This document shows, piece after piece, positions 251 through 63,842 of a stretch of DNA of 64,000 nucleotides. The DNA comes from Nannobrachium achirus (taxonomy: Eukaryota > Chordata > Actinopteri > Myctophiformes > Myctophidae): the NCBI GenBank assembly GCA_963921795.1, contig OY997639.1, positions 53,974,553-54,038,552 of the forward strand, written 5' to 3'. Within the stretch, counting starts at the first letter, position 1, and the number at the start of each line of letters is the position of its first letter. The position numbers and the translations under genes were made by a program. The notes under the pieces were generated by a model. It was not told the origin of the DNA, ran no database searches, and saw only the letters and a list, made by a program, of their open reading frames with translations.

Positions 251-844
251 CCCATTTAGGCCTAGAATTATTGACTGCTTTAGCCAGTGAAAAATAGCAG
301 ATATACAAGCTCACAGCGCGGCACCGAGTGCCGCGCTGCGAGCTTGTAGATCTGCTATTTTTGAAAAAGTCATGAAAATGTGTGCAAATCTTTGAATATA
401 TGTATTTTCAAAGCGAACGGTTGTAACTCAAATGTTGCTTCTGGGTGGTCCCTGGAACTAAATATTTTGAGATGCGGGTCCGTGGCCAAATAAATATCAT
501 TTTGGGGGTCCTTCACATGAAAAGGTTTGAGAACCACTGACACAGTAGTCTCTCAAGAACAGACTAACTGAGCTCCAGTTAAGTGAAAAGGACCTTTTCT
601 TTGACGATGGCTGGCCAGATTGCTGACATAGAAACATAGGTTTTTTCCAAAAATCTTAGAAGGATTCAAAAGACACTTATAGAATCGGGTCAAAATTCTA
701 ATGTTCACGACTTTTCAAAAATAGCAGATCTACGAGCTCGCAGCGCGGCACTCGGTGCCGCGCTGTGAGCTTGTATATCTGCTATTTTTCAATAGTTAAA
801 GCATAAAATAATGATACACAAAATGTGTACCCGTTCTAAATGGT
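251..844 (+). mobile_element. TTAA-flanked piggyBac-like MITE (copy A)
   Basis: Non-autonomous element flanked by TTAA at 247-250 and 845-848. Its ends are CCCATTTAGG and, inverted, CTAAATGG, which is the TTAA|CCC arrangement of piggyBac-type transposons. Near-copies lie at 14317-14850 (inverted), 18768-19378 and 61784-62362. It carries two copies of the dispersed hairpin (about 292-362 and 718-790) around a piece that resembles one end of a CAGTGGTTCTCA hAT element (GTTTGAGAACCACTG near 526). No protein is encoded. Confidence 0.75.
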
Positions 845-848
845 TTAA

Positions 849-1165
849 GTAAAAGTAGCTATACCACAATATAAAAAAGGGACCTGAGTAAAAGTACAAA
901 AGGGATGTCATGAAAATACACTTACAAAACAAGTAAGTCACACGTTCTGTAAGGCACGTTGTGAGCTTGTAGATCAGCTAATAGTCAAATCTAAATCAAA
1001 GCAAAGTAACTAAAGCTGTCAAATCATTGTAAAATGTTTTGACTGTGGGTTGTAGCCTTAAGTATCAAAACATGGGAGATCAATCATCAAGTAAAAGTAA
1101 AAGTGCCTCAAAATTGTTCTTAGGCACAGTACTTGAGTAAATGTATTTAGTTACTTTCCACCAAT
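849..1165. mobile_element. hAT MITE fragment, AAGTA family
   Basis: The stretch is rich in AAGTAAAAGTA and TACTTGAGTAAA words and ends in GTTACTTTCCACCA, the right end of the CAGTGGTGGAAAAGTA family seen whole at 5926-6301. The right half of the dispersed hairpin is at about 957-980 (TTGTGAGCTTGTAGATCAGC). The left end is missing because it abuts the TTAA element. Confidence 0.5.
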
Positions 1166-1656
1166 ATGAGAAGGATGTTGCACTGTTTGTTTCCAGCACT
1201 GCTGGGGATGCCATGCCATGAAAACAGCCACTGACAAGTTAATCCACTGCAGTTGTACCTTTGCCAAGGCCCAGCCATATTAAGGCTGCTTAAGGATATG
1301 TTATGCTTGTGTGATTCATACTGTAGGTATAAGGAAACTAGGGATTTACGCTTTGGAATCTGATGACGCATGATGAGTCACTCTGCAAATATTGGCAGAA
1401 TTATCTTAAATAAAATTAACCCATGTGCTCTTATTCTTTAGTCTTGTCTAGAACTTTTTTCTTTTTTTCAAGGATCCCCTCATAACTCTGAGTGTTTGGT
1501 TCCATTTGTACACTGTCATGGCCTTTTCACATACTGTATAAACCCTTTTAAACTAACCGAACTGAGTCCTCTTCAAGAGGACCATGGAGTGGACCAACAG
1601 AAAAGGTTCTGAGTTCTTTCTTTGCGTTCACATTGTCAGTTCATTTGAAAGAGGAC

Positions 1657-2470: not shown

Positions 2471-2477
<7 letters not shown>

Positions 2478-2528
<51 letters not shown>
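2478..2528. repeat. (GA)n microsatellite
   Basis: About 25 uninterrupted GA units, followed by a short GGT run that provides the target of the adjacent hAT element. Confidence 0.95.
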
Positions 2529-2540: not shown

Positions 2541-3099
2541 CAGTGTTGATTTTGTCGACTAAAACTCAGACAAAAAATGTTGACTGCTTTTCTTTCACTG
2601 ACGAAAACTAAATCAAAACAAAATCAAAACTAAGCTGTGATGACTAAAACTAAGGCTAAATATATTGACAATTTCGTCAACGAAATAAGAACTAGACTAA
2701 AACGTTAGGGAGGGACTAGTGGAGAAGAGAGTCATTTTATGTTTGGTTGCTCTCAGGTGTTGTGTGCTGAAAATAGCAGATCTACAAGCTCACACGCTGT
2801 GAGCTTGTAGATCTGCTATTTTCAGCACACAACCAAGTGTAAAATCTGTCATTACATGCCATCAAGGCCTGCCAAAATGCATTTCAGTTGACTAAATCAA
2901 CTGTAGCTTTGGTCGCCTAAAATCTTATGATATTTAGTGGACTAAAATTAGACTAAAACTAAAACCTTTCGGGTGACTAAATTATGACTAAAACGAAAAT
3001 TACATTTTATTCAAAAGACTATGACTAAAACTAAATTACATTTTATTCAAAAGACTATGACTAAAACTAAATCAACATTTGCTGTCAAAAACTACACTG
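2541..3099. mobile_element. hAT-type MITE with 8-bp target duplication
   Basis: Begins CAGTGTTGATTTTGTCGAC and ends AAAAACTACACTG. It is flanked by identical 8-mers GGTGGTGG at 2533-2540 and 3100-3107, although the target is itself a GGT repeat. The interior is built from many GACTAAAACTAAA words. A perfect palindrome of about 75 bp (2759-2833) sits in it and carries the dispersed TAGCAGATCTACAAGCTCAC stem. No transposase is encoded. Confidence 0.7.
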
Positions 3100-5008
<1,909 letters not shown>

Positions 5009-5095: not shown

Positions 5096-5507
5096 CAGTG
5101 GTTCTCATCCTTTTCAGGCCGCAACTCCCCAAATAATCATATTTTAACTGGCGACCCCTCCACCCTGACGAGCACTAATAGTTGAGGCATTACATTTTGT
5201 ATATCACGGTTCTATTGTGAAAATAGCAGATCTACATGCTCACAACGCCTCGCAACGCTATCGGCTATTTTCACAATTTCTGCCTCTAATATTTGACAAT
5301 TTGGCCAATGTTTAATTTGTCATTTTAGAGGTATTAAAAAGTCCTTAAATTGTCACTTTAGAAATGTGGATATACCCTCCATACACTTAAAAGTTATGCT
5401 GGTTTGTTTACTGTTGAGTGAAAAAACAATGTTACACATTAAATTAATCATCTGGGGACCCCCCAAAATAATTTGGGAACCCCCCTGGGGGTCCCCCTGA
5501 CCCACTG
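5096..5507. mobile_element. hAT-type MITE, CAGTGGTTCTCA family
   Basis: Starts CAGTGGTTCTCATCC and ends CCCACTG, with near-identical 8-bp flanks CTATAGAC (5088-5095) and CTGTAGAC (5508-5515). The interior carries a degraded copy of the dispersed hairpin at about 5218-5275. A second member of the family starts right after the flank, at 5516. Related sequence is at 24476-25224. Confidence 0.7.
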
Positions 5508-5925: not shown

Positions 5926-6301
5926 CAGTGGTGGAAAAGTACTCACACATGTTACTTAAGTAAAAGTATCAGTACTGCCGTATAGAAATACTCCGCTACA
6001 AGTAAAAGTCCGGCATTCAAAATGTACTTGAGTAAAAGTATAAAAGTGCTGGCATCAAAATGTACTTAAAGTACCAAAAGTAAAAATACAAAATGTTTGA
6101 AAACAGCAGATCTACAAGCTCACAACGCCTCGCGATGAGACACGTTGTGAGCTTGTAGATCGGCCATTTTCAAATAGCCAAGGTATAAAATAGGGCTAAA
6201 GCACTTGAGTAGGCCTACAGTACTTAAAGGTCTCATGTCACGCTCCGAAGATTTACATTATAATACAGTAGGTAAATATACTCAGTTACTTTACACCACT
6301 G
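5926..6301. mobile_element. hAT-type MITE, CAGTGGTGGAAAAGTA family
   Basis: Starts CAGTGGTGGAAAAGTACTCA and ends AGTTACTTTACACCACTG. No matching 8-bp flanks were seen. The centre holds a full dispersed hairpin (about 6097-6174) with loop AACGCCTCGCGATGAG. Other members: 46021-46419, 52088-52705 and 56337-56854. Confidence 0.7.
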
Positions 6302-8700: not shown

Positions 8701-8929
8701 TGACAGTAGGCAGATGAAGCGTTTCGCAAAACACGGACTGGAGTCAGTGGAGACCTCCCTCCCTCCCTCCAGCCCGGATCATCACAGTAGGCCATATACC
8801 AGGAAAGCATCATGCATATTTCATGTGTGGAGACCAGGCTGTGATGAGTGAGAGAGGTGAGGTGAGAGGTAAATACAGAAATGAGCGTCAGCAATTGCGT
8901 GACTCAGATAAGTTCCAGTCAGACCTCTA

Positions 8930-9180
8930 ATCCATAAGAAAAAAAATCCTATAGGATTTCAAAGAGGGAAAGAAATCCAATTAAAAACAAATATGCTATT
9001 GGATTTTTTTTAGGAGTATTATTATTCTATAATTTACCTAATATTTGTTCCAAAATCTTATAGGATTTATCATTATTTATTATCCTAGAAGAATTTATCC
9101 AATAGGATTCGTTCCAATTTTGTATAGGATATTTCCCTATTGAATTTTGAATTATAGATTACAATCCTATGACTTCTTGA
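8930..9180. repeat. Cluster of palindromic TCCTATAGGA-like words
   Basis: An AT-rich block in which ATCCTATAGGATT and variants (ATCCAATAGGATT, TCTTATAGGATT, GTATAGGATATT, CAATCCTATGA) recur roughly every 20-60 bases on both strands. Spacing is irregular, so it is not a tandem repeat. Function and family are unknown. Confidence 0.45.
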
Positions 9181-9199
9181 CTAGAGAGCTTTTATTTTA

Positions 9200-9360
9200 C
9201 TATAGTCATCAATAATAAGCCCATATCTCATCAATATCTCATCATAGTCATCAATAATAAGCCCATATCTGGGAATGCCCATATATTAAGCCCATATTTG
9301 GCAAGGGGCTTATTATTGATGACATCATGGATCTCCATATATGGGCAGGATATCCAGGTG
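9200..9360. repeat. Short inverted repeat with GCCCATAT words
   Basis: GTCATCAATAATAAGCCC (9246-9263) and GGGCTTATTATTGATGAC (9306-9323) are inverted around GCCCATAT-rich sequence. A related block occurs in slc25a32 intron 3 (39680-39840, 41530-41600), so this is a dispersed repeat. It contains CCATATATGG at 9335-9344. Confidence 0.5.
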
Positions 9361-13980: not shown

Positions 13981-14316
13981 TTAGGCCTAAAGGAGGTTTC
14001 TGCCTGACAAAAGTGTATGTAAGGCAATACCAAGTCAAAAGATACTCGGGTAAATTGTTAATTCTGTCTTATATTCTTATTTGAATACAAAAACAGAATG
14101 TGGCTATATTAATCCAGGCCACATGTAGAACAAAATTATCATCTAATTTGAGTAAAAATCATTCTGGAAACCTTGTCTTTTGATATTTGTAGCCTTGGCA
14201 CAGTAAAACGGATCTTGGCCTTGCGATGAGCAAAGCCCTTTCACAGCGGTGTTTGTGTGGGGCTGAATGTGTGTGGAGTCTGAACATTTCAGGAGTCCTT
14301 CAGTTGTGTGTAGTAA

Positions 14317-14850
14317 CCCATTCAGAATGGGTACACATTATGGTGTATCATTATTTTATGCTTTAACTATTGAAAAATAGCAGATATACAAAATCTGCTA
14401 TTTTTGAAAAGTCGTGAAAATTTGAATTTTGACCCGATTCTATAAGTGTCTTTTGAATCCTTCTAAGGTTTTTTGAAAAACCTATGTTTCTATGTCAGCA
14501 ATCTGGCCAGCCATCGTCAAAGAAAAGGTCCTTTTCACTTAAATGGACCTCAGTTAGTCTGTTCTTGAGAGTCTACTATGTCAGTGGTTCTCAAACCTTT
14601 TCATGTGAAGGACCCCCAAAATGATATTTATTTGCCCAAGGACCCCCATCTCAAAATATTTAGTTCCAGGGACCCCCCAGGAGCAAAATTTGAGTTACAA
14701 TCGTTCGCTTTAAAAATGCATATATTCAAAGATTTGCACACATTTTCACGCCTTTTTTTCAAAAATAGCAGATCTACAAGTGCCGCGCTGCGAGCTTGTA
14801 TATCTGCTATTTTTCACTGGTTAATTCTGGTCAATAATTCTAGGCCTAAA
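14317..14850 (-). mobile_element. TTAA-type piggyBac-like MITE (copy B), inverted
   Basis: An inverted copy of the element at 251-844: it starts CCCATTCAGAATGGGTACAC and runs through both hairpins to GGCCTAAAT near 14850. The left flank reads GTAA in place of TTAA. The first hairpin (about 14370-14410) has lost most of its stem and the second (14758-14818) has lost part of its left arm. The right end is cut by the hAT element starting at 14859. Confidence 0.7.
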
Positions 14851-14858
14851 TAGTATAT

Positions 14859-15188
14859 CAGTGGTTCTCAAAGTGAGATCCGTGGACCCCCAGGGTCCTT
14901 GATGGTGTTCCAGGGAGTCGCCGCCGGTTACATTTGTTAATTTAACATCACAATCAGTTGAACCACTTTAAACCAATTTTAGACTTCGGCGATTTGGATA
15001 GCAGATCTACAAGCTCAACACGTAGCGATGCGATGTATTGTGAGCTTGTAGATCTGCCATTTCTTGACAAGTTCTCTTCTGAGGGTCCCTGACTCCCTGG
15101 CACCAAATCTTTTCAGATGGAGTTCTGATGGAGTTCCCCTACATATCAATTTGGGGGTCCTTGAAAAGAAAACGTTTCAGAATCACTG
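14859..15188. mobile_element. hAT-type MITE, CAGTGGTTCTCA family
   Basis: Starts CAGTGGTTCTCAAAGTG and ends CGTTTCAGAATCACTG. A dispersed hairpin with loop around CGTAGCGATGCG lies at about 14996-15063. The flanking 8-mers do not match exactly at these borders; TAGTATAT (14851) and TAGTACAT (15191) are similar if the end is two bases further on. Confidence 0.6.
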
Positions 15189-17434: not shown

Positions 17435-20400
17435 CTATTTGACCACAGCCACTACATGTTTCTGCTTCTCTGACACCACCGGAACACTTCCTGGTGCGCT
17501 GTGCTTGCGCACGTTCTTCTCCCTGGGAAATACAAATCACAAGAATCAGCATGAGTAACCCAGCTATAGTTGTCTAATAGTAAGAACAGGACTGGGCAAT
17601 TAATAGAAAATACTGTATATCCGACATTTAGAACCAATAACCTACTTAATATTGCTTGTGTAGGTTCATTTAATAATCATCATTTTTCATAAGTTATTTC
17701 TATTTCTTTTATATCAATGAATCGACTGAAAAATACAGTTGAAATAACCGTGCTATTGATTTGAAGTAACCCGGTTTGAGTAACCCGGCTACAGTCTACT
17801 GCTAAGAATAGTTCATAGGGTGGACAGGAGAGTGAGAAAGAGAGATCAGAAAAGCAAATAGAGGATGGAGTGAGCGAAGGAGAGTGAGACAGAGGTTGTT
17901 GACCTTACACCTACGTCATTGACTACACTAACGTACCCTGAAAAAAAAAAAAAAAAAAAGATACATGCATAGTAAATCATTCACAGCGTCCAAGCACTGT
18001 CCCCACACACATAACAATAGTGATGTCAGTGTCTAAACAAACGCAACTGACTGACTGGCCCCGTTTGCCCTGCAGTTCAGTGATTCATAGGTCAATCAAT
18101 TCACAATGGAAAACTGTAAATGAGTATGCAATATCTATCTGTATTCTGTAAACAAGGCAAAGGGGACAGTCGTGTCTATGATGCTTTCAACTTGACCAGT
18201 AAGTCTGCATGTAGAGACCAATGATAAGTTGGTCTGACTGATACATCAGCCATTATTTTACTTCTCTGCAATTATGCAGCACATAATTCCCAATTTCTAT
18301 CCACTTTCAACCTGCCGTCCCTATTTTGGGCAAGTCGTTCTTGGCAAATGTTTTCAAAAATAGCTGATCTACAGGCTCATAATGTGATGCGTTGTGAGCC
18401 TGTACTTTGGGCTGTTTTTGAAAAGTTTTGAATAGGACTGCTTGAATAAAATGAGTCCTAGTGAAATGTCCACAAAATAGAAACGTAAACCAAATGAAAC
18501 CTTTTCAAATTGATTAGAAAATGTTGCACTTTTTGACAAATATCGGTCAAAATAGGTAATCGGTGGTCTAGGACTCAAAATTGTGGCATCGGTCGGGCTC
18601 TAGTCAGATGATGGCAAGCAGCTGGATTTATCATGGAAAAAATTAGGCGTTCTCTTAACACTCTGGGACAAAGGCCAGGATAGGACTACCCTTAAATAAA
18701 AAGAAAACATACTTCCTGCGTCGTGCTTCCCTCAGTAAGGGTGCAATATAAAAAAAATATATATATACATTTAGGCCTAGAATTATTGAATGCTTTAACC
18801 CATTCAGGCCGGGTACACATTTTAGTGTATGGGAGGGGCTTACAGTACATGTACAGTATGTTGCAAAGTATTTGTTTTTGTAGGCTAAATTCTGATTTAG
18901 GCCTAACTAATAGGTTAGGCCTAAATGGGTTAACCAGTGAAAAATAGCAGATATACAAGCTCACAGCACGGCACCGAGTGCCGCGCTGTGAGCGCTGTGA
19001 GCTTGTAGATCTGCTATTTTTGAAAAAGTCATGAAAATGTGTGCAAATCTTTGAATATATGTATTTTCAAAGCGAACGTTTGCAACTCAAATTTTGCTTC
19101 TGGGGTGGTCCCTGGAACAAAATATTTTGAGATGGGGGTCCGTGGCCAAATAAATAACATTGTGGGGGTCCTTCACATGAAAAGGTTTGAGAACCACTGG
19201 CATAGTAGTCTCTCAAGAACAGACTAACTGAGCTCCAGTTGAGTGAAAAGGACCTTTTCTTTGACGATGGCTAGCCAGGTTGCTGACATAAAAACATGGG
19301 TTTTTCAAAAAACCTTGTTTTTCAACAGTTAAAGCATAAAATAATGATACACAATAATGTGTACCCGTTCTAAATGGGTTAAAAAGTTTCAGAAAATGTA
19401 ATAGCATTTCCAAACTAAATAAATAAAAAGAGCCCTTACTTTCTGCGTCGGGCCTCCTTCATGACTCGCAGCTCCTTGGCCTGGTTGAAGACGGTCTTGG
19501 GCAGGTGACGGTGCTTTGCGATGCGTCGGATCTTAGGGTGGTGCTGGAACTTCTCCTTCAGCTTCTGGTTGTAGTTCACCGCTTCCCTCTCTCTGGGCGC
19601 CAGCTGCCATTAGAGGAGAAACATTGTTTCTCAAACCTTTTCATTTCAAGGACACCCAAGTTTGGCATGCATTAGGCCACGGACCGCCGTAACTCTGCGA
19701 GTATACAAATAGAACCAAATGGATCAGTACGGGTCCATTTGGTCCATTTTGTACACTCTCAAGAGTTACAGACCTGAAAGGGTCCATATGTTTCCTAAAT
19801 TCCCCTGGAAACCCACCACTCTGGTCTCAGAACCGCACTTTGAGAACAACTGGTATAAATTGCAATATGAAGACAGGGACGGTATAAAATGGTGGGGGGG
19901 AGAAAATAAATAGTAGGAATGGAAGGGTGCAGACAGTTGATCGAACATAAAAAATAATGAAAATAATACCCAATGTACAAGATGACAACGCATCACATCA
20001 TGATGCGTTATGGACTTATAGATCTGGCAATGTTCACTATTTTTGCACGACACTGTTGTGTGGCGAAATCAGTGCTTAGTGCTTGTTCGATTACTCGATT
20101 AACCCGGGAAAGTAATCAATAGAATAATTGCTAAGTAAATAATGGATAGCTGCAGCCCTAAGAAGACAGTGTATAGGGAGACAGTATTAGGCAGCAAGAG
20201 TGGCGAGGAGAGGAAAAGTGAAGTGGAGGAACAGGAAAGGAGGGGAGAACCAGCCAACAAACAAAGTGAATAAGCATTATAAATACACGGTAACGAAGAG
20301 AGAAAAGGTAAGGGCGGAGAAAAACTTGAAGAAAACGAGGTAGTGGCTGGCCAAGCAGTGCAATTATAATAGAGGCCAAGCCATGCGTTGGGTTTAATAT

Positions 20401-35514: not shown

Positions 35515-43987
<8,473 letters not shown>

Positions 43988-46900
43988 GGACAAACGGACA
44001 AACCATGGGACAGTGGCAGGGGCACTCCAGTCTACGGGGTGCTGTGGAAAAGATACGGATAATGCAAGCAGTCTGTTAGTTTGCCAAGTTTGCACTTAAG
44101 GACACGCAAAGTTGTGGAAGAAAATTATATAAAAACTGTCATCTGAGAGATGAAGCAGTGATTGGTGCCAACAGCAACTTAAAGATGTTGTGGGTTCTCC
44201 GTAAAAATTCAAGTGATGGTGTGTGGAGTAATCCACTGCAGACTGGCACTGCACATAGGCCTCTGTTTCTGCCATGGATGCATTGCAAAGCCTTCTGTTT
44301 TAGGCAGAGGCGCAATTTCATAAAAAACTAGAGGGTGGTAAGGAAAAAAACTACTACTTAAACCCTATTCAAAAAATTGCTGATCTATCACGTCACACCA
44401 TCGCAATGTGTTGTGAGCATGTAGAGATATTTTTGTCTGTTTTTTAAGAATTACATTTTGTGGAACAGTTCGCGACATGTCCAAAATGGGGATGTATGGT
44501 TGCAGACAAGAAAACAGTGTCTTTAACGTGTGTCACATGTAGATGGAAGGGTGTGGATTGAGATGCACTCAGTGATGAGCTAAAGTCAGATTCATCTGCA
44601 AAATTCAGACTACAGTTAGAGAAAATATGCATGAAAGAGCTAACACCAAATGACACCCCTGGTTCTAGGGAAGAAAGCTGTGGCTTGACACATTGGAGGG
44701 TTTTACAACAGTCATTCTTTGATGCTGAGATTTGCTAACAAAATATCTGATTGGACTTTATAAAGGGCAACTCTGCCTGTATTTAACATGAATCCTATTG
44801 TGAGGATTGTGAATATTTAGGGTGCAACTTGAGGAGGAAAAGTGTCCCTGGGTTTCTAGAAGTGGAGGCCGTCTCCACGCTCGTGACCAAAGCCACAGGG
44901 TTCGAGTGTCTCGAACCACATACAAACTAAAAATAGCACCATGTTTTGTGGCCGTTTCCACTCGAGTCATTGTGGTCCACGACCTAATTGTACTGCCTTT
45001 TTGAGTTCTTATTTTGATGGGGCTCAATCGGACATTACACAGACTTTGTGCTAGGGAGCTGGTAGGCTAAAGTCTTGCATCATGTACAGTTGAACTGTTT
45101 CAGGCATTTGCATTCTCACATTAATACTCTGCTTAATGTCTAGATAAGTTCAGAGTTTGCAGTGCATGTAGCAGCCTCACTCACTGTGCTGGAAAATCCA
45201 CCTCAGAGCTTATACTGCATAGCCTAGTGTGGTGGTTCTCAAGCCTTTTAAACTGAGTTGCAGACCTGCAAGGGTCCATTTAGATTTTAGAACCCCCTCA
45301 AGGAACCCTGAGGGTCCCCGGACTCCACTTTGAGAACCATTGGCATAGATCTTAACACAGAATGTGAAAGGATTAATGTTAAATATTGGTGACATGCATA
45401 ACAGTGTTTTTGTTACTTTATATCTTATGATAAAAGAGGAGGCTATAGGCCTAAGTGCACAATATATGATACATAACATAATTATGGTAAAAGGCTTCAT
45501 CTATTTATACTCAGGGTTATCAATGCATGTGTGAGTTCATTATTTTTGTCTTTATATTTATCTTGTGTGATGTCTGTAATGTCTGAACCACACTGACTGT
45601 AGATGGGGCTTAATATCATGGTCCATTGATTTCTGCATTTTAGAAAGAAAATAATCTTAGTGAATGAATCTTTGTGAAGATATTTTCTAAACTAAGTGTT
45701 CTTTATCGCAGTCGGTTGTTAATTGCATGATAGAATGCTGTTTAGTTTTCAACATCCTTTCCCCCCCCCAGCTCTGTCTTCATTTTATTGTACTGCATAA
45801 CAGTAAATACATTATATACCATGCTTTTAGTTTATATTTTTGTGCAAAATGTAAAGGTTTTCATTGCATGTAAACTTCTGGGAGACATACAGATGACTTT
45901 ATTAATAACATGTAATAACAACGCATACAAACAGGTCACATTCTCCAGCCTATCGGCATTGTCAAAATCTCACAATGAAATGAATACAATGAAAATGTAT
46001 CTTGGTCTTATATTACTTATCAGTTGTGGACAGTAACTAAGTACATTTGCTTGCGTATTGTACTTACAGTAAGCTAGTTTTCTTTTTGAAAGTTAATGAC
46101 TCAAATAGAAATATTGTACTTTTGACTCCACTGCATTTCTTGGACTCTTGGGAACAAAACTTACACAAATATATTATGAATGAACCACTTAAGGCCTATT
46201 TCAGATATGGTGAAATATCCGATCTACAAGCTCACAACTCCTTTCACCTGCGTCATGTGAGCTTGTAGATCTGCTATTTTTGAAGATTTTCTTTACATTT
46301 TTTTATTTGGGGACATCTCAAAACAGCAATGCATAAATTAAAATAAAATGTGCTTCATATTTTCTACTTTTGAATACTTGAGTGTTCCTTGTCTATATAC
46401 TGTACGTTGTCCACCACTGCTCATCATACACACATTGACAACACATTTTCTGTAATTTGGCACCAGTTAACTAAAAAGGGTACAATCTCTAGCAGCAGTT
46501 TGGCTGCTCTCCGGCTACCAAACCGCCTTTCATTTCATGAAAATGAACAACAATTTGAGCAAAGGTTGACCTTTCCTCCTCAGTGTGACAAGGCACTTTA
46601 GCAGAAAGACTACAGTACAAAATGATACTACAGTAAAAAAAGAAAATGAAGTGTTATTTTTGGTACACAAAATAATACAGTACTCCCCCTTTTACATCCC
46701 TGTCGTGTCAACAAGTCTGGTATAAAAATAAAACATTCAAGTTGACATCGGTGATGCTGCGATGCCTCAACTGCTAAACCACAACTGATGGTTTTGGTGG
46801 AGCCACATGAGACAGCATTCTATGACCGGGGCCCTCCCCTCCAAATCATGGCTCTTTTCGACTAAGTGTAACGCAGAACCTTTCATAACCTGAACTGTCC

Positions 46901-47244: not shown

Positions 47245-54980
<7,736 letters not shown>

Positions 54981-55801: not shown

Positions 55802-58034
55802 TTTATTAAAAAGACACTGATACAAAATTCAAATGCACAATGTAAAAAGGTTCAAAAACTGAAATTAAAGAGCATTTCATAGCTAAACTACACTAGGTCT
55901 AGAGATCATCCAGAATGATAAAATGTAAAAGTATTTTATGAAATAGATGATGTTCCCTTTATCAAGTGTAACTGGATTGTCCTGGTCTTTCATACAAAAG
56001 GATCACATGATGGAAGGAAGAGCACTGGACCTCAAACACACAGCATTAAGAACAGTGTGTTTAACAGTGTCATGGTTTTCAAATAATCAGCACAGAAAAT
56101 AAATGGTGAAAATACTTACAAGAGATAATTCATGGTCCTCACCTGTACATTTCATGGGAACTTTCCTCATCTCCTTTTTTATTAACAGTCTGGTATATTG
56201 CTATTAAACTCAACATTCAATTGTGTGTAAAATGACATACGAGATGCTGTAGTGCAAGAGCTGTCACCATTCTGCAGATTGATTCCAATTTGAAATTAAT
56301 ATGAAAACTCCAATAAGAATAGGCACATGGCATAACCAGTGGTGGAAGAAATACTTTTTTTTTTACTTAGTAAAAATACCACATTATAAAAATAGGCACT
56401 TTGTTACAAGTAAAAGGACTGTAGGATATTCAAATTTTACTTAAATTAGAGTAAAAATGTGTCAATAGTGTCATGACACATTGTGAGCTTGTAGATCAGC
56501 TATTTTCAAATAGACAAAGTATAAAATATGGCTTAAGCCTTAAGTAGGCCTAGTTGTAGTGGAGTAAAAAAGTACAATGTGGAGTGGAATCCGCGTTCCG
56601 CCAATGCATTTCAATGAGAAGGGAGCGTTTTTTTGCAGAAATCCTCTGCTGGCATGAAACCGCTTCACTCTCATTGAAATGCATTGGCGGAGCGCGGATT
56701 CCACTCTCATAGGTATTTTGGTGTGAGGGCAGGGCACCCTTAAAGTATAAAGTATTGAAAAGTGTGAATACTCCAGTAAAGTAAAAGTAGATAGAATTGT
56801 ACTTAGGCACAGATTAGTATTTGAGTAAATGTTCTTGGTTACTTTCCACCACAGGGAATAACCATGTAATAACCCCACATGTAAAGCAATCCTTATTAAA
56901 AAAGAAGGCACATTCTTTAGGACAATATATAAAGCCATATTTCCCCAAATTCACAGGACATGAAACCGATGGCAATTTGAAACGAATAAAATCACAAAAA
57001 AAAAAAAAAAAAACTATTTACAGCATTTTATGTAGAAAAAAGACAAACATTGTAGTGATAGACACCACAGCGTCTGCAAAGTCTAAAACATGAACTACAC
57101 AATTTAAATATGTGTTCTTCAAAGAAATAAAAAAACAACACATATTTATAGACATAACTGTCTTCTGAATAAAAACAAATAGTTTTTGTTTGTTTGTTGT
57201 CTTACCCAAAGTAAGACTTTAAGTGGACTGTTTGGCAAATATCTTGACATCTCTCATCAAAGCACAGTGTAGAGACTAGTAGTCCAGTGACAGACTCTTG
57301 AATTCTAAAAAATAAAATATTATATACATAAATATTGCATTTGTTTACCAGTGTGCAGTCTACAACTTGTATGACATATACATACTGTACGTCTACAACA
57401 TGTATAGCTTTTTAATATGCATTAAAATGGGTTCTTTTACAGCAAACAAAACAGCAATTGCCACGGAAAGGCTTTGAGGCCCAAAGCTCAGTAAAGCTGA
57501 ATGACAATGTGGCATCACCCATATCTTGAGTGATAGCAACACTAATGCTTAATTTATGTCGTGCACCGAAAATATGCAATCTGTAATCTGTTTGTAAAAT
57601 TGTAGATTCCCATTTCTGGTGTGCACCGCTTCGTATGACGAAGTACAAGACTCTCTCCTCTGAACACGCCTACATAAAATGTGCCCAAGTTGCAAATACT
57701 TAAAGAGATTTGGCCGGAAATATAAGTCTTCTTACTAAAATACAACTTTACTCTATATGCTAACATAAAATGAACTCCCGGAAAATATAGCACAAATCAA
57801 TGCCCTCAATTGGTCTGTACTGTAGTGCCAATTCTCTCTCTGAACAAAATGGAACCAAATGGAACGGCAAAACACTCTCAGAGTTAAAAAGGTATGAGAA
57901 CCATTCATTTCCTTAACCCTCTGGCGTCTGGCATTTTGTTTTAAAATACAATTTGTGGTCATGTGTGGACGACTTTCAGATGGACATCAGGGTGGTTCAA
58001 AGTGTGTGCAGATGAAATGTGTGATTGGTGTGTC
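55802..58034 (-). other. fzd6: fzd6 probable 3' UTR
   Basis: The stretch lies downstream of the fzd6 stop (58035) and ends at a minus-strand AATAAA at 55802-55807. Other AATAAA sites occur closer in, so the true end is unsure. It contains a complete hAT element (56337-56854) with a palindrome, and a poly-A run near 56996-57012. No other gene was seen. Confidence 0.4.
56337..56854. mobile_element. hAT-type MITE, AAGTA family, with large palindrome
   Basis: Starts CAGTGGTGGAAGAAATAC and ends TTACTTTCCACCACAG, with flanks GGCATAAC (56329-56336) and GGAATAAC (56855-56862), seven of eight identical. It holds a right hairpin arm at about 56480-56512 and a second palindrome at about 56583-56706, with arms GAGTGGAATCCGCGTTCCGC and GCGGAGCGCGGATTCCACTC. 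Confidence 0.75.
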
Positions 58035-61000
58035 TCAACAGCTGCTGTCCTTGTTGTCTTTGCTCTCCTCTGGTACGGGCCGTACCGGGTGTGGGGCGGA
58101 GCCTTTGATGATGTTGCTGCTGTGCGATAGGCTTAAAGCTGAATGCTGCGGTCCAACGGGAGCGTGTCTGGCCTCTGATAGGTCACTCTTAGGAGTCATC
58201 CTAAAAAACATCATGAGATATTTAAGGATTTTTTTTACAGGTATTGTCAACGTACTGTAGAGACTTTTTGTCGCTGTTCCAAAATAATTATCTACCTAAG
58301 TCAAAGAGAAGACTTATAAGCAGATAGTGATTTTGGAATGCACCAAGCATTCTGATAGGCTGGGGACAATAATGAACAGTGAATCAGCAGAGAAAAAAAA
58401 ACAAAAGTCAAAGAGAAAACGCAAGGTAGCTCTCCACCAAACACACTACTACAGATTACTACAGACTGGCAGTCGGTTGGAAGGTTTGAAAAAAGGTTTC
58501 TGAATGCAAATGAGAGCCAACACCGACAGAGAGCTACTATGGTGCTAAAATAGCCTATGGCTTGATGTCTTTTTCAACAACAAGCCCGCTGCTATCCGAC
58601 GGCCCAAAGCTTGGTCGGCTTTTGACGTTTCCTTACAACTAGTGACTAGACAGTGTACCCACCGCCCATTCAACAGCAGATTTTCGGCAACAGACGCTTT
58701 CCAACACTTACCGTCGCCGACGTCGGTGGGGTGGAGAGCTACCTTTAGGTAGATAGTCATTTTTCTTCTTTTCTGAAAACCTTAACATATGATGTAGGCA
58801 ATTATGCTATGAGGCCAACGATATAATATCTATCCACCGAAGGAAGTCAACTTCACCAACCCATATTAAATGTATAGGGTGGCATAACATTACCAGGTAA
58901 AATCATACACTATAAACACAGCTGAAACATGGCAAAGTTCTATAAATCTCAAGAAGACAGTCTTATTTTGCCTTCCAACTGTGTCCACTATTCAAACATT
59001 AGTATAGTGATCATACATTATTTACCTAGGTAGTTGGAGACAGCGTTTAAGTTAGGGCAATTCATATTTTTTGGTTAAAACAAAATCAGTTGAGAGAAAC
59101 TGTCAGCTTTGATTGTATAATGTTCCAAACTCATCACTTACAATTTCACTTTATGCTACTTTTGATACTTTTGTGTGATGCTGTAGTATGATCACCTAAG
59201 GCCTTAATTTAGAAAAACACCTATTACCTCCTACTATCCCTCCCTTACCTTCCGTCCGGGACTCGTTGGAAGCTCTCAGAGCGGCTGCTGATCTTGCTGG
59301 AGCTCCCGGCCTTGCTGCGTCTCTCGACGGCCTCCCGGTGCAGGCCGCCCTCCCTCTCCCTCTCTCCTCCTCGCCTGGAGGTGCGTCCGGATGCCGCCCT
59401 GTCCAGGTGCTCCCTGCCCGAGGTCTCTGACGAGCCCCTGGGCTCAGAGAGGGAGCCGTGGAGCCGCAGGTCGTGGTTGCTGACGGCGGAGGTGCCCTGG
59501 TTGGCGGTGGTGGTGGGGGTGCCTGAGGCGGTGGTCGGTGCACCGCCCGTGCTGGTCCCCATGGACTTGGAGATAACCTTGAGCAGTGGGGTGTAAAGCA
59601 ACTGTAAGTACATTTACTCAAGTACTGAACTTGAAGCTGTATGTAACTTTACTGTTCTACCCCGGATTTGAACCCGGTTGGTTGCCTGAGCAAGTGCTGG
59701 AATATTTTACCATTGAGCTAATAGAGCCTGCCTGCTTGCTCAGGGGATAAATTGAATCTTGTCCATCAGGTCAAAATTGAGATCCTGTGTCTAGCTGAGA
59801 CATGACCTTTGACACAATCTAAATGTCTCAATAGAGGAGCAGGGAGACAAATTCCAACCACCCAATTGTATAAGTTACATTGTATTAACATACTCTACCA
59901 TACAGATTGGACAAAATGCCATTGTATTAATAAAAAAATGTTACATAGTGCTGCTTTAAGTACAATTTCAAACTTGATTTTACTTGATTTGCGTATTTGA
60001 ATTTTCCACTTCTCCGCTATATCTCAGTTGTACTTATTACCCCAATACATGTATTTGTAGTGGCTTTGGTTACTGGTTACTTTGCAGATTTAGATTATAA
60101 TTGGAATCATTATAAATAGCAGATCTACAAGCTCAGTATGAAAGCACAAGTATAAAATAGGGTATAAGTGGTTAATGATCAATAATTATAATACAATATG
60201 GGACATTCTGCATTAGCTACTTTAAGCATATTTTGAGGATTTTGTACTTTTAACTTAAGTAAGATTCTGATTACAGGACCTTGGATATTTGTACTTCTTC
60301 CAGCACCACTGACCTTGAGTTTGTGTGAGCCAGGCTTGTAGTGCTTCTTCTTGTGCTGCACGCGGCTGTTGTGTTTGAGGAAGAACTCGCAGGACTCCTG
60401 CAGCACCCTGCGGCTCTCGCTGATGGGGCTGTGGACCACAGACCATGATGGGGTCAAGACAGTGATCTTCTATACAGTGTTACAAGCTGCACATTGTCTG
60501 CCGATTATAAAAGCATGATGCGCAGAATAGGGATGCCAGTGTTAATGTGGTTAATTTCCTAATAAATAAACATAAATATACACAAATCTGTTATGTCAAT
60601 AGGCTATATGCATATACGCCATTTTGTTCTACTTCCGGGTGTCTTTCGACTTCCTTCACAGGTGTTACCGACATTCTGGTCAAACAGAGTCAGGGTGCTG
60701 ATATTGTGCATGTTGGCTCACTGGAAACACTCTGCTACACCAGTGGGTCTCAAAGTGTCCTTGAGTGGGTTCCATACAGGTGTGCAAATGGAAGCAAATG
60801 GACATGCAAGGGTCCATTTGCTTCCATTTGTTGATTCCATTTGTACAGAGTTATGGGGTCCTTGAAATTAAAGAACCACTGTACAATAAATCAAACAGAG
60901 CCTTCATTAGTATCATCAGTAACACCTGTGGGAAGTCGAAAGACACCCGGAAGTAGAACAAAATGGCGTATATATATGCATAGAGCCTATTACAGGTACA

Positions 61001-63842
61001 TGCACATACATTTTTCACAAATATATCAAAAGTATTAGCTCAAAACGTTCGAGCTTGTGGATCTGCTATTGTTGATGCTTATGTGTGACGAGGCAGTATG
61101 ATGAAAGTAGGGCATTCATTTACAAAAAAAAAAAAAAACACACAAAAAGTTAGAATATAGAGATAAGAAGTTTCTGCCCGACAGCAGAGATATGTATGCG
61201 ATAAGGTCTTGCTGCGCTGTCATTATGGCTTATATGGACACGACGGGGTGATAATTCCCCGAGGCGGAGCCGAGGGGAATTATCAGCCCGAAGTGTCCAT
61301 ATAAGCCATAATGACCAAGCAGCAAGACCTTATAGCACTTATTACCCGGCTAATACATAAAATTAATAATTTGACTCAAAACTAAAAACAAAACAAAGTA
61401 TTTCCTTGTTTACAGACGGCTGGAAGTGCGTCCCCCCGAGCGCAACACGGTCGCCTTGGAAAACAAGGAAGTGCTGGTCAAATAGAATCCATGTTCTGTT
61501 ACTGCGTCGTCTATTTCTCGCCTCAAATGGTTTTTAAAACATTTTTCAGAGCAACGTTTAGTTGTAAATGACGCTGTGTGTTTGTTTACATGGCTGCCAT
61601 GTTGGATACGGCACTACATTCACGCAGCGCAGCCTGAATGCAGCAGCTGTTCTGAGCCGTTGATTAGGCAGCGGTGAATTATAGAGCGGAGCGGTCATTA
61701 TACGCTCATAATTCACCGCTGATTTCAGCGCTCGACCAATCAGAATCAAGCTCCCAAACGAGCCGGGTAATAAGTCATGTTAACCCATTAAGCCTAGAAT
61801 TATTGAATGCTTTAACCAGTGAAAAATAGCAGATATACAAGCTCACAGCGCGGCACCGAGTGCCGCGCTGCGAGCTTGTAGACCTGCTATTTTTGAAAAA
61901 GTCGTGAAAATGTGTGCAAATCGTTGAACATATGTATTTTCAAAGCGAACGTTTGTAACTCAAATGTTGCTTCTGGGGGGGTCCCTGGAACTAAATATTT
62001 TGTAATGGGGGTCCGTGGCCAAATAAATATCATTTTGGGGGTCCTTCACATGAAAAGGTTTGAGAACCTCTCAAGAACAGACTAACTGAGCTCCAGTTAA
62101 GTGAAAAGGACCTTTTCTTTGACGATGGCTGGCCAGATTACTGACATAGAAACATAGGTTTTTCAAAAAACCTTAGAAGGATTCAAAAGACACTAATAGA
62201 ATCGGGTCAAAATTCGAATTTTCACGATTTTTTAAAAATAGCAGATCTACAAGCTCGCAGCGCGGCACTCGGTGCCGCGCTGTGAGCTTGTATATCTGCT
62301 ATTTTTCAATAGTTAAAGCATAAAATAATGATACACAATATAGTGTACCCGTTCTAAACGGGTTAAAGAGCAGCCGTCTCACTCTGTCTTGCGGGTCCTG
62401 TTGAAGAAGTAGGCCCACTCTGAGCAGGTCTTCTTGCTGCTGACCCAGAACACTCCAGATATTCCCACCACCAGCGTCATCAGATATTTCACCAGGAAAA
62501 GGGACAGATCAGGACGGTCATACTCCATTGTCTGAAACAGAGAAAACCAGCACATAAATAGATACACGTTATCCAGTGCGTTTGTGCGACATTACATTTT
62601 GAATCAACATTTTGAATTGAAGCGGTGAAAGCCGCTTCCAAGGAGTGGCTTTGTGTGTCCCGTACATGTCCATATATGGTCGTAACAGTCCAGAATGAAC
62701 AGGCTTGGTCTGTCCCGTACATGTCCCGTGCATGCAGAATTGAGGATTGGTCAAGCTTCACATGACAATTTGGCCCTCCAGATAAAATCATTCATTCATT
62801 CAGAATTCATAAAAATATAGAACTAAAGCACATAGAAAGTATAGATCTAGAACACAGAATGTATAGATCTAGAACACAGATTTCATAGCTCTAGAACACA
62901 TAGAATAGAAATTCACCGCTTCACTTCGAACCGAGGTTTGATTTTTTTGTGTGTTCCATATGACCAGTGGGTGTGCGGTGCAGTGTCCTGTGGCAATTTG
63001 ATTGGACCAACGGTATCAGAGAATTGAAAATCACAAATATCTCTATTATCTGTCTGACTGCGGGTCTCCGGGCAATGCACCGATTCTGTGCAGGATACAC
63101 AGAATCTCTGTGTGTTTACGGGGAGTGTATCCCTGATTGGCCAACCTGGATTGGTGAAGCTTCGAGTCAAGATTGAGCTAATTAGCCAATATAAGATCTT
63201 TATTGGCCAGCGCAAGCAGTCGGCTTAAAGTGAAGCAGAACGCTAGATGAGTGTAGCTGACAATGGGTACGAGGAGTGAATCAGATAACATGAGTGCTGC
63301 ACAATGGCTGTGGCCGTGTATTCCCGGCTTGCATCTGTCCCGAGAAGGCTGGTGCCCTTCTAGCTCTACACAATAACCACTACTGAACTACATCAATCAG
63401 CTTCAATAAATCCACAGTTTACCTTGTGTGAGCAGGGGATGCTGTACTCCTGACAGCGGTCGTTGATCCAGGTCTTCTCCCAGGTGCTGCGCTGGCTCTG
63501 CTCATAGATGTAGCACGCCAGCAGGGTGACCAGAGGCACCAGGTACAGGCCACTGAACACGCCGATGCGGATCATGAACTTCTTCAGCTTCTCCTGGTTG
63601 CGCTCGTCGTGCTGGATGACCTGCCGCACGTGGTTGAGAGACACGATGCCGGCCAGGAGCAGCGACAGGCCCACGATCACGCCCACGCACAGCGGGGCCA
63701 GCACAAAGTAGCGCAGCGCGTCCAGGTCGTAAAGGCCCACGAAGCACACGCCACTGATGTTGTCCCCCTCCACTTTGTTCAAGGCCAGCAGCAGGATGGT
63801 CAGTGCCCCAGGGAGGCCCCAGGCCGCCGAGTGGAACCACAC
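58035..63842 (-). CDS. fzd6: Frizzled-6, C-terminal five coding exons
   Basis: Minus-strand exons 63423-63842, 62383-62531, 60314-60428, 59249-59577 and 58035-58200 have GT-AG borders and continuous phase, ending in a TGA at 58035-58037. They encode about 392 residues. These run from transmembrane helix 4 ([20 protein letters not shown]) through helix 5, the loop [20 protein letters not shown], helices 6 and 7 ([20 protein letters not shown]) and the Dishevelled-binding KTxxxW motif, here KKTCSEW. The long FZD6-type cytoplasmic tail follows ([31 protein letters not shown]) and ends DNKDSSC. FZD6 is a Wnt receptor acting mainly in planar polarity. The cysteine-rich domain and helices 1-3 lie right of base 64000. 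A MITE sits 14 bases beyond the donor of the 62383-62531 exon. The tail between VISKSMG and the stop is poorly conserved and rich in Arg, Ser and Glu. Confidence 0.96.
58423..58745. mobile_element. Terminal-inverted-repeat MITE in the last fzd6 intron
   Basis: Ends AAGGTAGCTCTCCACC and GGTGGAGAGCTACCTT are perfect inverted repeats. The left part recurs next to dcaf13 exon 9 (25424). No transposase is encoded; the superfamily is not clear. Confidence 0.7.
59650..59868 (-). repeat. tRNA-derived SINE-like repeat
   Basis: On the minus strand, the A-box-like ATTAGCTCAATGGTAAAAT (about 59730) and B-box-like GGGTTCAAATCCGGGG (about 59667) form a nearly complete tRNA-like part. The adjoining piece, to CTCCCTGCTCCTCTATTGAG, matches 1-235 at the window start. 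It lies in a fzd6 intron. Confidence 0.55.
60113..60150. repeat. Dispersed hairpin, left arm only
   Basis: ATAGCAGATCTACAAGCTCA without a partner arm, inside AAGTA-family hAT sequence in a fzd6 intron. Confidence 0.6.
60598..60991. mobile_element. MITE with long terminal inverted repeats, interrupted by a hAT remnant
   Basis: Arms of about 70 bases: AATAGGCTATATGCATATAC at the left and its near complement ending GCATAGAGCCTATT at the right, both continuing into CCATTTTGTTCTACTTCCGG. Between them, 60741-60881 looks like a CAGTGGGTCTCAAAG..AAGAACCACTG hAT element with words in CAAATGGAAGCAAATGGA. Confidence 0.7.
61030..61195. mobile_element. CTGTCAGG-family MITE, right part
   Basis: A right hairpin arm (GTTCGAGCTTGTGGATCTGC, about 61047), then TAGGGCATTCATTTAC and the end AGTTTCTGCCCGACAGC. 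The left end is missing. Confidence 0.5.
61201..61333. repeat. Large palindrome
   Basis: ATAAGGTCTTGCTGCGCTGT to GGGGTGATAATTCCCC pairs with GGGGAATTATCAGCCC to GCAGCAAGACCTTAT, giving arms of about 60 bases with a short GAGGCGGAGCCGA loop. It abuts the element starting at 61337 and may be part of it. Confidence 0.75.
61337..61775. mobile_element. Terminal-inverted-repeat MITE, ACTTATTACCCGGCT ends
   Basis: Ends ACTTATTACCCGGCT and AGCCGGGTAATAAGT are perfect inverted repeats. An inner palindrome lies near the right end (GCGGTGAATTATAGAGCGG against CGCTCATAATTCACCGC). No coding sequence; superfamily unassigned. Confidence 0.75.
61784..62362 (+). mobile_element. TTAA-flanked piggyBac-like MITE (copy D)
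   Basis: The best-preserved copy: 579 bases from CCCATTAAGCC to CTAAACGGG between TTAA sites 61780-61783 and 62363-62366. Both hairpins are whole (about 61823-61895 and 62234-62307) with the GCGCGGCACcgaGTGCCGCGC-type loop. Its right TTAA is 10 bases from the splice donor (62377-62382) of a fzd6 exon. Confidence 0.85.
62532..63422. other. fzd6 intron without recognised repeat
   Basis: The intron between two fzd6 exons. It contains CCATATATGG at 62670, three spaced copies of an AGATCTAGAACACAGA-like unit (62840-62900) and the word GAATTGAAAATCACAAATAT. No hAT or TTAA element was seen. Confidence 0.4.

Follow-up and report, generated by a model that had tools for sequence, protein, structure and literature searches.

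One palindromic hairpin in many kinds of transposon, spread at least partly by hairpin-bearing elements nested in others and copied along

How can one short hairpin lie inside transposons whose ends are unrelated? The question comes from a window of 64,000 nucleotides (the whole stretch of DNA analysed; Table 1), for which the first-pass annotation reported about 30 hairpins, whole or as one arm, roughly one per 2 kb. The observation is confirmed and extends far beyond the window. We found 43 matches to the 20-base stem in the window with up to 3 mismatches, where 0 were expected and 100 shuffles gave 0. With up to 5 mismatches there were 52 matches, grouped into 32 sites that are either paired hairpins or single arms, which gives the reported density of around one per 2 kb. 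The palindromes were located where they had been placed, for example with 36/36 paired bases at 2759-2833. Both main loop types already described, AACGCCTCGC and GCGCGGCAC, were seen in window hairpins, and a third loop, AACGCGTCGC, is frequent outside the window.

Table 1. Hairpins, single arms and carrier elements located in the window.
Feature	Position	Strand	Remarks
Hairpin, left end of TTAA element 1, GCGCGGCAC loop	290..362	.	arms 35, 33 paired, loop 3
Hairpin, right end of TTAA element 1	710..796	.	arms 42, 37 paired
TTAA-bounded element, hairpins near both ends, hAT-like end piece inside	251..844	.	TTAA both sides
Single arm	961..980	-	stem match
hAT-type element CAGTGTTGATTTTG, central hairpin 2759-2833	2541..3099	+	TSD GGTGGTGG, 8/8
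hAT-type element CAGTGGTTCTCA, hairpin 5214-5277 with one damaged arm	5096..5507	+	TSD 7/8
Hairpin in CAGTGGTGG element 5926-6301, TTAA-MITE flank on right	6096..6174	.	palindrome and flank match
TTAA-element copy, hairpin 14378 collapsed, hairpin 14766-14809 shortened	14314..14851	-	
Hairpin in CAGTGGTTCTCA element 14859-15188, left TTAA-MITE flank	14999..15059	.	flank scores 110, 118
TTAA-element copy, hairpin 18940-19021	18799..19378	+	TTAA both sides
hAT-type element CAGGGGTCYTCAAC	23049..23552	+	TSD CCCCACTT/CCCTACTT, 7/8
TTAA MITE (TTAACAACTTGAACCC ... AAGTGATTAA) nested in hAT 23049-23552, central hairpin 23199-23265	23149..23362	.	
CTG MITE, central hairpin 25887-25957	25786..26017	+	
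Hairpin, second CTG subfamily	27033..27080	.	
Hairpin in GGGATGGGACGATA element (29705-30120)	29934..30003	.	duplication GGAGGGAG seen in L013 copy
Hairpin in CAGTGGTGG-type element 46021-46419	46213..46279	.	
Second copy of CAGGGGTCYTCAAC hAT	47845..48305	+	TSD 7/8
TTAA unit nested in hAT 47845-48305, hairpin 48079-48157	~47990-48208		
Hairpin in CTG element 49222-49445	49286..49368	.	both arms with identical changes (AGATCTGCAAGCTCGA)
hAT-type element CAGGGGTGTCGCAC enclosing TTAA-element sequence, hairpins 51523-51589 and 51788-51860	51385..51947	+	TSD CTCCCACC
CAGTKGTGGAC element	53211..53768	+	TSD CACACAGC, 8/8
Single arm, partner arm lost, TTAA-MITE flank retained	56483..56502	-	
Single arm adjoining TTAACCACTTATACCC end (60147-60175)	60117..60136	+	
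TTAA-element copy, hairpins 61822-61894 and 62234-62306	61784..62362	+	TTAA both sides

Genome-wide (1.66 Gb), the exact stem has 66,270 copies and the reversed-pattern control has 0. Twenty fixed-position 10-kb samples held 33.6 arms per 64 kb vs 43 in the window, and arms with up to 3 mismatches were present in 19 of the 20 sampled contigs; the high density is not peculiar to the window. Extrapolated from these samples, the genome would hold around 0.87 million arms at around 0.6 million sites. The shuffles, the empty reversed-pattern control and the spread over contigs make an origin by chance, from low complexity or through faulty assembly practically untenable, and we found no support for it. 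Known structured RNA did not appear either (Rfam over the window, 0 matches at gathering scores), and exact searches of viral and prokaryote collections with a 22-base and a 20-base pattern found nothing.

Regarding the carriers, they comprise nine to twelve hAT-type families, TTAA-bounded elements, one TA-flanked element and CTG elements. The earlier claim of a hairpin common to families with unrelated ends is thus borne out genome-wide, across 8-bp, TTAA and TA-flanked carriers. hAT elements are recognised by an 8-bp target duplication (TSD) together with CAGNG-like or TAGGG-like ends. The hAT-type carriers, putatively assigned from these two features, have duplications matching at 7 or 8 of 8 positions: 8/8 in CAGTGTTGATTTTG (GGT-repeat context), CAGGGGTGTCGCAC, CAGTKGTGGAC, TAGGGATGGGACAA, CAGGGACGTGCAGA, CAGGGACGTGCTGG, CAGTGGTTCCCAAA, CAGGGGTCAGCAAC and CAGGGGTTCCCAAA, and 7/8 in CAGGGGTCTTCAAC and CAGTGGTTCTCA-1. 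By eye, GTCTAGCG was found twice as target duplication of the CAGGGGTTTTCAAACG element. We recomputed the duplications for all 12 elements listed in the first-pass annotation, and seven of its boundaries stood, with TTAA or with a duplication of 8/8 (2541-3099 and 51385-51947, the former weak because it sits in a GGT repeat) or 7/8 (5096-5507, 23049-23552 and 47845-48305). The remaining ones were unclean, namely 14859-15188 (6/8), 5926-6301 (5/8), 46021-46419 (4/8) and the two CTG elements (3/8 and 5/8), and the first three, as single copies, lack the 8-bp duplication of hAT-type carriers.

TTAA was found on both sides of 251-844, 61784-62362, 18799-19378, the L009 copy at 8712-9288 and a set of 188-bp units. 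The ends of the TTAA elements read CCCATT and CCACTT, which does not fit CC[C/T]T, the terminal motif of piggyBac-type MITEs in the available text of PMC2872659, and therefore we name them TTAA-bounded only. The TTAA, TA and hAT-type elements have the length (179-594 bp) and terminal inverted repeats of MITEs at a scan threshold of 11/14 matching end bases; the ends of some listed elements match less well (7 to 11 of 12). Their copy number is also that of MITEs, since one junction alone has 29,332 copies, and genome searches for three families gave 3,554, 656 and 1,463 first-look candidates. Among the window copies, three ORFs of 120-181 codons overlapping elements or a remnant (25605, 48030, 24191) had no Pfam match, and a fourth ORF (25817-26266) has a WD40 match that lies outside the CTG element.

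Nesting accounts for part of the sites, which leaves the puzzle of the unrelated families about half solved and the first-pass interpretation partly supported. The 188-bp units, with TTAA on either side, are nested in the CAGGGGTCTTC hAT (L009 and L016), and the junction between hAT and TTAA MITE is the one with 29,332 genome copies (up to 2 mismatches; control 0). The TTAA-group end TTAACCACTTGAACCC has 15,374 exact genome copies (control 0). TTAACC-like ends pointing inward lie near 12/105 arms, where 1.06 were expected, and in the opposite orientation near 1/105. Flanks matching the TTAA-bounded MITE group were found at 67/123 sites, stand-alone TTAA elements included as well as nested ones, vs 8/400 control pseudo-sites. 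Hairpin-bearing CTG elements with both ends seen lie inside the CAGGGGTCAGCAAC (L010) and CAGGGACGTGCTGG (L013) hATs, TSD 8/8, and one CTG end lies inside the CAGGGGTTCCCAAA hAT (L026, TSD 8/8) and another inside a second CAGGGACGTGCTGG-type copy (L019, TSD 7/8). A TTAACCCATCTAG end was also found within the CAGGGGTGTCGCAC hAT: inside the CAGTKGTGGAC element there is a CAGGGGTGTCGCAC end (53237), then the TTAACCCATCTAG end (53322), a loop-less hairpin (53368-53438) and a further arm at 53554.

One nested insert is fixed in its outer family, with 29,332 filled junctions and no empty one found. The genome-wide search for the empty site of the nested TTAA unit gave 30 matches, all with two mismatches (control 12), so we infer this insertion from the inner ends rather than from the site itself. 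In the CAGTGTTGATTTTG hAT the palindrome is present in 40/40 scored genome copies, a count that includes the query's own copy and favours hairpin-bearing copies because the query contained the hairpin. The L024 context, with one match in the sample, is a repeat, and its 40 scored copies all span the hairpin.

We therefore lean, with moderate confidence, towards the view that ancient and highly successful MITEs carry the palindrome as their conserved core, and that it reached other families mainly by nesting. Chief among these MITEs would be the TTAA-bounded group with ends TTAACCACTTGAACCC and TTAACCCATTTAG. A hairpin-bearing MITE would insert where another MITE, mostly of hAT type, has interior sequence that it can spare. 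The transposase of the outer element would spread the combined element to thousands of loci, and the inner ends would decay while the palindrome stayed recognisable. Repeated rounds (TTAA MITE in hAT, CTG MITE in hATs, hAT in hAT) would put one palindrome into many families. Those families in which no inner end is recognisable would presumably be older cases of nesting, and this order of events is likewise presumed.

We measured flank linkage with consensus alignments and with anchored ones, both controlled, which replaced an earlier profile search on an automatic flank alignment (few usable scores, seeds too mixed). A pairwise flank comparison was discarded, since its labels split related copies (14/777 nominal cross pairs above 99.9% of the null). 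In the anchored test the flanks of CTG, CAGGGACGTGCAGA, TCCACAAGTTTCC, TAGGACTG, CAGTGGTTCCC, L015 and L024 score as random, and CAGTGTTGATTTTG (p 0.007) and CAGTGGTTCTCA-1 (p 0.012) are borderline, on one side each. The TAGGGATGGGACAA family passes the consensus comparison and fails the anchored test (p 0.11 and 0.22), and some of the flank matches behind the 67 sites may be due to chance in AT-rich sequence. L017_6836 passes the consensus comparison, yet its own family fails the anchored test. The longer shared segment named earlier as the alternative to an independent module thus exists at the 67 sites and in the 188-bp units, and the anchored test detected none in the CTG, CAGGGACGTGCAGA, TCCACAAGTTTCC, TAGGACTG and CAGTGGTTCCC families; where TTAA-type flank is lacking, an independently spreading or recruited hairpin is possible.

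Between flank clusters, stem identity is 0.76-0.96 at 16/20 positions; in the five bases outside it is 0.77, 0.76, 0.63, 0.56 and 0.38, and from the sixth around 0.25 (random 0.257). This match halts sharply at an A-run, which argues against nesting, as the nesting of a 200-bp element predicts otherwise unless the flanks decayed. Nesting also does not explain why this palindrome, rather than another insert, is everywhere.

The sharp edge, and the several families with nothing else detectable in common in the anchored test, would be expected if a bare palindrome moved or was copied between elements without carrier ends, through template switching, say, or when DNA that is capped by a hairpin or cut at a cruciform is repaired. 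We consider this rather unlikely. Some copies of the CAGGGACGTGCAGA hAT do close exactly at ATATCG|ATGC: the 23-base closed-junction pattern has five matches (two exact, three with one mismatch), L073 has a further closure two bases off the pattern, and the filled copies L011_2508 and L091 have CG on either side of the hairpin, the pattern expected of a 2-bp duplication. Nevertheless, exact closures are few (40 copies scored from 1,463 first-look candidates in the joined-flank search) and lie within a series of partial deletions, so taking them as true empty sites is unsafe. They occur in both sub-forms of the family, and closed copies diverge by 0.024-0.049, like whole copies at 0.016-0.043 (L018: 0.107); the closures may thus have arisen by deletion between CG repeats. 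Arm remnants persist in CAGTGGTTCTCA and CTG copies that lack the hairpin, and no family examined has a clear duplication at the hairpin. Thus, where exact empty sites had been hoped for, most of the hairpin-less copies examined are ragged deletions in or around the palindrome, with around six exact closures in CAGGGACGTGCAGA only. The mobile hairpin of the first-pass annotation gains no firm empty-site support, and capture or movement of a bare hairpin is possible for CTG, CAGGGACGTGCAGA, TCCACAAGTTTCC, TAGGACTG and CAGTGGTTCCC, in which the anchored test detected no TTAA-group flank.

Transposons could also retain or recruit the palindrome for a function useful to them: it might enhance transposition, form a DNA structure that a host protein reads, or give rise to small RNA. 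The stem is kept across flank clusters that are otherwise unalignable, family-specific changes are present on both arms, and palindromes are lengthened outward by family-specific bases. The two arms within a hairpin resemble each other more closely than arms of different hairpins do (171 mismatches vs a permuted mean of 207; 0/5000), but this may only reflect common family ancestry, with 160 one-arm vs 29 both-arm changes. Among 20 CAGTGTTGATTTTG copies selected for their whole-element score, divergence from the consensus is 0.045-0.068 in the hairpin bins vs 0.008-0.067 in well-covered bins elsewhere, so that these copies seem free of constraint. The arms diverge less in other families, but this is biased because those copies were picked by their arms, and we claim no within-family constraint. 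As precedents, the available texts describe an internal region conserved across CMITE families (PMC2872659) and internal sequences by which the mobility of mPing is increased or decreased (PMC9921582). All in all, a functional part seems distinctly unlikely.

A single lineage by descent, with exchanged ends and an inherited palindrome, would account for the flank sequence that the two TTAA types and the unit within CAGTGGTGG elements have in common. It is very improbable, because the carriers have different ends and different surroundings (8-bp duplications, TTAA or TA), and several families have no detectable similarity beyond the stem.

There is some chance, though we doubt it, that the hairpin is a hitch-hiking module crossing superfamilies, recruited repeatedly by DNA transposons of different transposase classes, by nesting and bare, because an interior hairpin aids amplification; several hundred thousand copies in one genome would then come from repeated recruitment. 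The interior of a MITE is commonly regarded as arbitrary filler. A palindrome near the centre of 8-bp, TTAA and TA-flanked families would make a transposase-independent help to multiplication testable. If it is pure hitch-hiking, there would still be large-scale MITE-in-MITE nesting that creates high-copy families, and repeat annotation would be at risk of joining unrelated families via the common hairpin.

Related systems are known. Angel is a palindromic teleost MITE, and Tol2 in fish has internal inverted repeats, that is, a palindrome inside a hAT element; both resemble the present hairpin in description. Tol2-like ends read CAG.GGTG with subterminal repeats of AAGTACTT type, and such ends were seen by eye here; the CAGTGGTGG element 5926-6301 is putatively Tol2-like. 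Bacterial REP/REPIN sequences are likewise short, dispersed, high-copy palindromes, moved by a dedicated transposase, RAYT, which is a feature of the bacterial system. Among open-licence papers, none on Angel was found by title (the word is absent from PMC7599744) and none had the stem strings, which does not establish their absence from print.

The nearest precedent is the coral CMITEs. In Acropora, according to the available text, they have TTAA duplications, are linked to piggyBac and share a 75-bp internal region more conserved between families than the ends; its authors suspect that this region takes part in transposition, and they also report a new TE that arose through CMITE insertion (PMC2872659). 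As far as that text goes, both cases concern short MITEs with an interior common to families with different ends, whereas here the families have a palindrome in common, and it occurs in carriers with 8-bp duplications, with TTAA and with TA flanks. Compared with the hairpin, the 60-base CMITE sequence in print shows no match (score 38; 608/1000 shuffles as good). The V domain common to V-SINEs and the MER6 MITE is, in the text available, also a conserved module of one TE class spread within the burst of a DNA transposon (PMC6887750); that is a SINE domain in a mariner-type MITE, whereas here a palindrome lies in many families of one genome.

Regarding hairpin orientation, the 24542 copy was considered as a flipped hairpin and rejected, since by eye 24542 and 5224 are different one-arm deletions of one full hairpin. 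A palindrome flip-flop, suggested by CAGTGTTGATTTTG copies that have either A or C as stem position 5, was dropped because the combinations look independent by eye. Most TTAA and CAGGGGTCTTC copies keep a single hairpin orientation.

With up to 3 mismatches the 20-base stem TAGCAGATCTACAAGCTCAC matched the window 43 times (0 expected), and with up to 5 mismatches 52 times, giving 32 sites, each a paired hairpin or a single arm. The hairpins that the first-pass annotation had placed at particular positions were recovered by a palindrome scan made without the stem, with 36 of 36 pairs in the hairpin at 2759-2833. Regarding the twelve elements it had listed, the target duplications were clean or nearly clean in seven (TTAA at 251-844 and 61784-62362; 8/8 at 2541-3099 and 51385-51947; 7/8 at 5096-5507, 23049-23552 and 47845-48305) and not in the other five.

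The genome holding the window (1.66 Gb, 564 contigs) contained 33,439 and 32,831 exact copies of the 20-mer and 0 of the reversed 20-mer control. We also sampled twenty 10-kb stretches, one taken at 10.0 Mb in each of contigs 1 to 20, and found 105 arms with up to 3 mismatches (10 exact), present in 19 of the 20. If this sample is typical, its 525 arms per Mb extrapolate to about 0.87 million arms in the genome, and its 72 sites with such an arm to about 0.6 million sites. The window is only somewhat richer, with 43 arms per 64 kb against a sample mean of 33.6. Window and sample together, with up to 5 mismatches, gave 186 arms (0 in the reversed sequence) in 123 sites, 63 of them paired.

The outer flanks of these arms formed 54 clusters, 34 of them with a single member. 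Cross-cluster identity, computed with one arm per cluster (48 clusters used), ranged over 0.76-0.96 for 16 stem positions out of 20 and was lower at positions 5, 9, 19 and 20 (0.38, 0.71, 0.65 and 0.64). In the five bases outside the stem it was 0.77, 0.76, 0.63, 0.56 and 0.38, and farther out about 0.25-0.33, the random value being 0.257. The two arms within one hairpin are similar for about 12 bases outside the stem, with exceptions; the palindrome is prolonged there by family-specific sequence. In the 63 pairs the two arms of a hairpin were more alike than arms taken from different hairpins, with 171 mismatches where permutation gave 207 on average and none of 5000 permutations came as low. 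This likeness can be explained by shared family ancestry, and 160 changes were confined to one arm while 29 were common to both.

Carriers were sought around all 123 sites by scanning for terminal repeats with a target duplication, disregarding many TA hits, several of which lay within palindromes. We count nine to twelve hAT-type families, because some ends resemble one another, and besides them TTAA-bounded elements, a TA-flanked element and the CTG elements, which are MITEs named by their ends. The labels hAT, Tol2-like and MITE were given from end and duplication patterns, not from a transposase. In L016 (L-numbers denote stretches or element copies outside the window) the TA element lies inside a TTAA element. 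Other copies of TTAA elements show this site without it at eight places, and the TATA there is split and not clearly duplicated.

Carriers of the hairpin in window and sample, and coding matches in the window
Feature	Position	Strand	Basis
hAT-type carriers CAGTGTTGATTTTG, CAGGGGTGTCGCAC, CAGTKGTGGAC, TAGGGATGGGACAA, CAGGGACGTGCAGA			8/8 duplication
Further hAT-type carriers CAGGGACGTGCTGG, CAGTGGTTCCCAAA, CAGGGGTCAGCAAC, CAGGGGTTCCCAAA			8/8 duplication
hAT-type carriers CAGGGGTCTTCAAC; CAGTGGTTCTCA-1			7/8 duplication
hAT-type carrier CAGGGGTTTTCAAACG	L029		GTCTAGCG at both sides, by eye
TA-flanked element TCCACAAGTTTCC, 179 bp	L010 8133-8311; L016 7513-7691		
Frizzled/Smoothened-family receptor exon	window 63393-63842	-	Pfam PF01534, 2.3e-52
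WD40 repeat match	window ~26110-26206	-	ORF 25817-26266, PF00400, 5.4e-6, residues 21-52
468-codon ORF, reverse transcriptase domain, LINE-like	window 33546-34952	-	PF00078

The best-supported account of the spread of the hairpin is hitch-hiking by nesting, which three settings show: the CAGGGGTCTTC hAT, the CAGGGGTGTCGCAC hAT, and hATs that contain CTG elements. In the CAGGGGTCTTC hAT, aligned over twelve copies (some partial, and L005 without useful alignment), there is a complete smaller element, TTAA-CCACTTGAACC, the hairpin and GGTTCAAGTGG-TTAA, which the scan found in L009 and L016 as a unit of 188 bp bounded by TTAA left and right. The hAT/TTAA junction had 29,332 genome matches at up to 2 mismatches (control 0), whereas the joined, insert-free junction had 30, all with two mismatches (control 12); therefore, the TTAA insert is a fixed part of this family. 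The sequence TTAACCACTTGAACCC had 15,374 exact genome copies (control 0). A CAGGGGTGTCGCAC end is followed, at 53322, by a TTAACCCATCTAG end within the CAGTKGTGGAC element 53211-53768, whose duplication is perfect. Finally, hAT interiors contain hairpin-bearing CTG elements, with both CTG ends in L010 and L013 and a single end in each of L019 and L026.

The flanks support nesting at roughly half of the sites, and at the rest we infer it. When a score no lower than the second-highest among 1500 random flanks was required, at least one flank matched the TTAA group (TTAA-bounded MITEs with the hairpin) at 67 of the 123 sites and at 8 of 400 pseudo-sites; the match held for 57 of 96 well-matched sites and 21 of 32 window sites. 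Among the 67 are TTAA elements standing alone and probably a small number of chance matches in AT-rich sequence. An anchored test, comparing the family flanks beside the hairpin with the flank of the TTAA unit, was significant for CAGTGGTTCTCA-2, the outer sides of TTAA elements, CAGGGGTGTCGCAC and CAGGGGTCTTC, and weaker for CAGTGTTGATTTTG (p 0.007), CAGTGGTTCTCA-1 (p 0.012) and the CAGGGGTTTTCAAA hAT (p 0.032); the CAGTGGTGG flanks were its seed and so were not counted. It was not significant for either CTG subfamily or for CAGGGACGTGCAGA, TCCACAAGTTTCC, TAGGACTG, CAGTGGTTCCC, L015, L024, L021, 18361 and TAGGGATGGGACAA; 18361 and TAGGGATGGGACAA have flanks resembling the TTAA type in other tests. 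Families without such a flank have detectably only the palindrome in common. Nesting in a longer segment, which the first-pass annotation had set against an independent module, is supported at part of the sites. In the families with only the palindrome in common a bolder reading may apply, namely that the hairpin was recruited, or moved, by itself.

Among published cases CMITE comes nearest, with an internal region better conserved across families than the ends (PMC2872659). CMITE elements have TTAA duplications, and their sequence, as far as that source gives it, did not match the hairpin. The CC[C/T]T end, described in the same source as a piggyBac hallmark (PMC2872659), is absent from our TTAA elements, and therefore we do not call them piggyBac.

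Where CAGTGGTTCTCA-1 (at three places in L028) and CTG (in L019) had no hairpin, the copies retained arm pieces or had also lost flank, and we read them as deletions. For the CAGGGACGTGCAGA hAT the query was the two flanks joined without the hairpin, which favours hairpin-less copies, and 20 of 40 scored copies matched across the junction. Among 20 fetched copies, four (L073, L074, L089 and L090) closed exactly at ATATCG|ATGC, four had the whole hairpin and 12 carried changes or cuts within the palindrome or close to it. Across the genome the 23-base closed-junction pattern had two exact matches and three with a single mismatch; three of the four fetched closures were among these five (not L073). 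Because CG may stand on either side of the hairpin in filled copies, the closures are either rare relics of an unfilled state or deletions between the two CGs, and we lean to the latter. As candidates for the exact empty sites proposed as a check there are thus five to six closures, all in this family.

Regarding constraint, the palindrome was kept in 40 of 40 scored copies of the CAGTGTTGATTTTG family. Nevertheless, in 20 fetched copies (reference row excluded) its 20-base bins diverged by 0.045-0.068, no less than the 0.008-0.067 elsewhere in the element, where two bins of thin coverage and the final bin, which extends past the element, were dropped; therefore these copies look unconstrained. 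Any benefit of the palindrome would act on master elements. Lower arm divergence in other families was left unused, as those copies had been chosen by their arms. Many of the CAGTGTTGATTTTG copies L033-L052 have the loop or palindrome centre deleted differently, a natural series of such deletions.

The Frizzled-family exon, together with the kinds of repeat, suggests that the DNA is from a ray-finned fish. A host exon probably lies just past the CTG element 25786-26017, judging from the WD40 match. A long palindrome without the shared stem (61197-61337; arms 64, 57 paired) stands just past a CTG element end, and a TTAACCACTTTAAACCC..CTATTTGAAAATAG flank with no hairpin behind it (2108-2153) lies in a CAGTGGTTCTCA-like remnant. 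The window also has a long imperfect inverted repeat at 28276-29251 (self-alignment 83.5% over 1042 columns) and an inverted duplication of about 1.2 kb at 38081-39240 / 40160-41360 (94% identity) containing CAGGGGTC-type ends. Outside it, the stem pieces CTACAAGCTCAC / GTGAGCTTGTAG occur in successive repeats (L025 ~2555-2935, L021 ~4480-4700), resembling a satellite that arose from the hairpin. In L005, L031 and L032 the CAGGGGTCTTC hAT has its end region, GACCCCTTAGTTGAGAGAGAGATGAAGCAGG, in tandem repeats, so that a transposon end has become a minisatellite.
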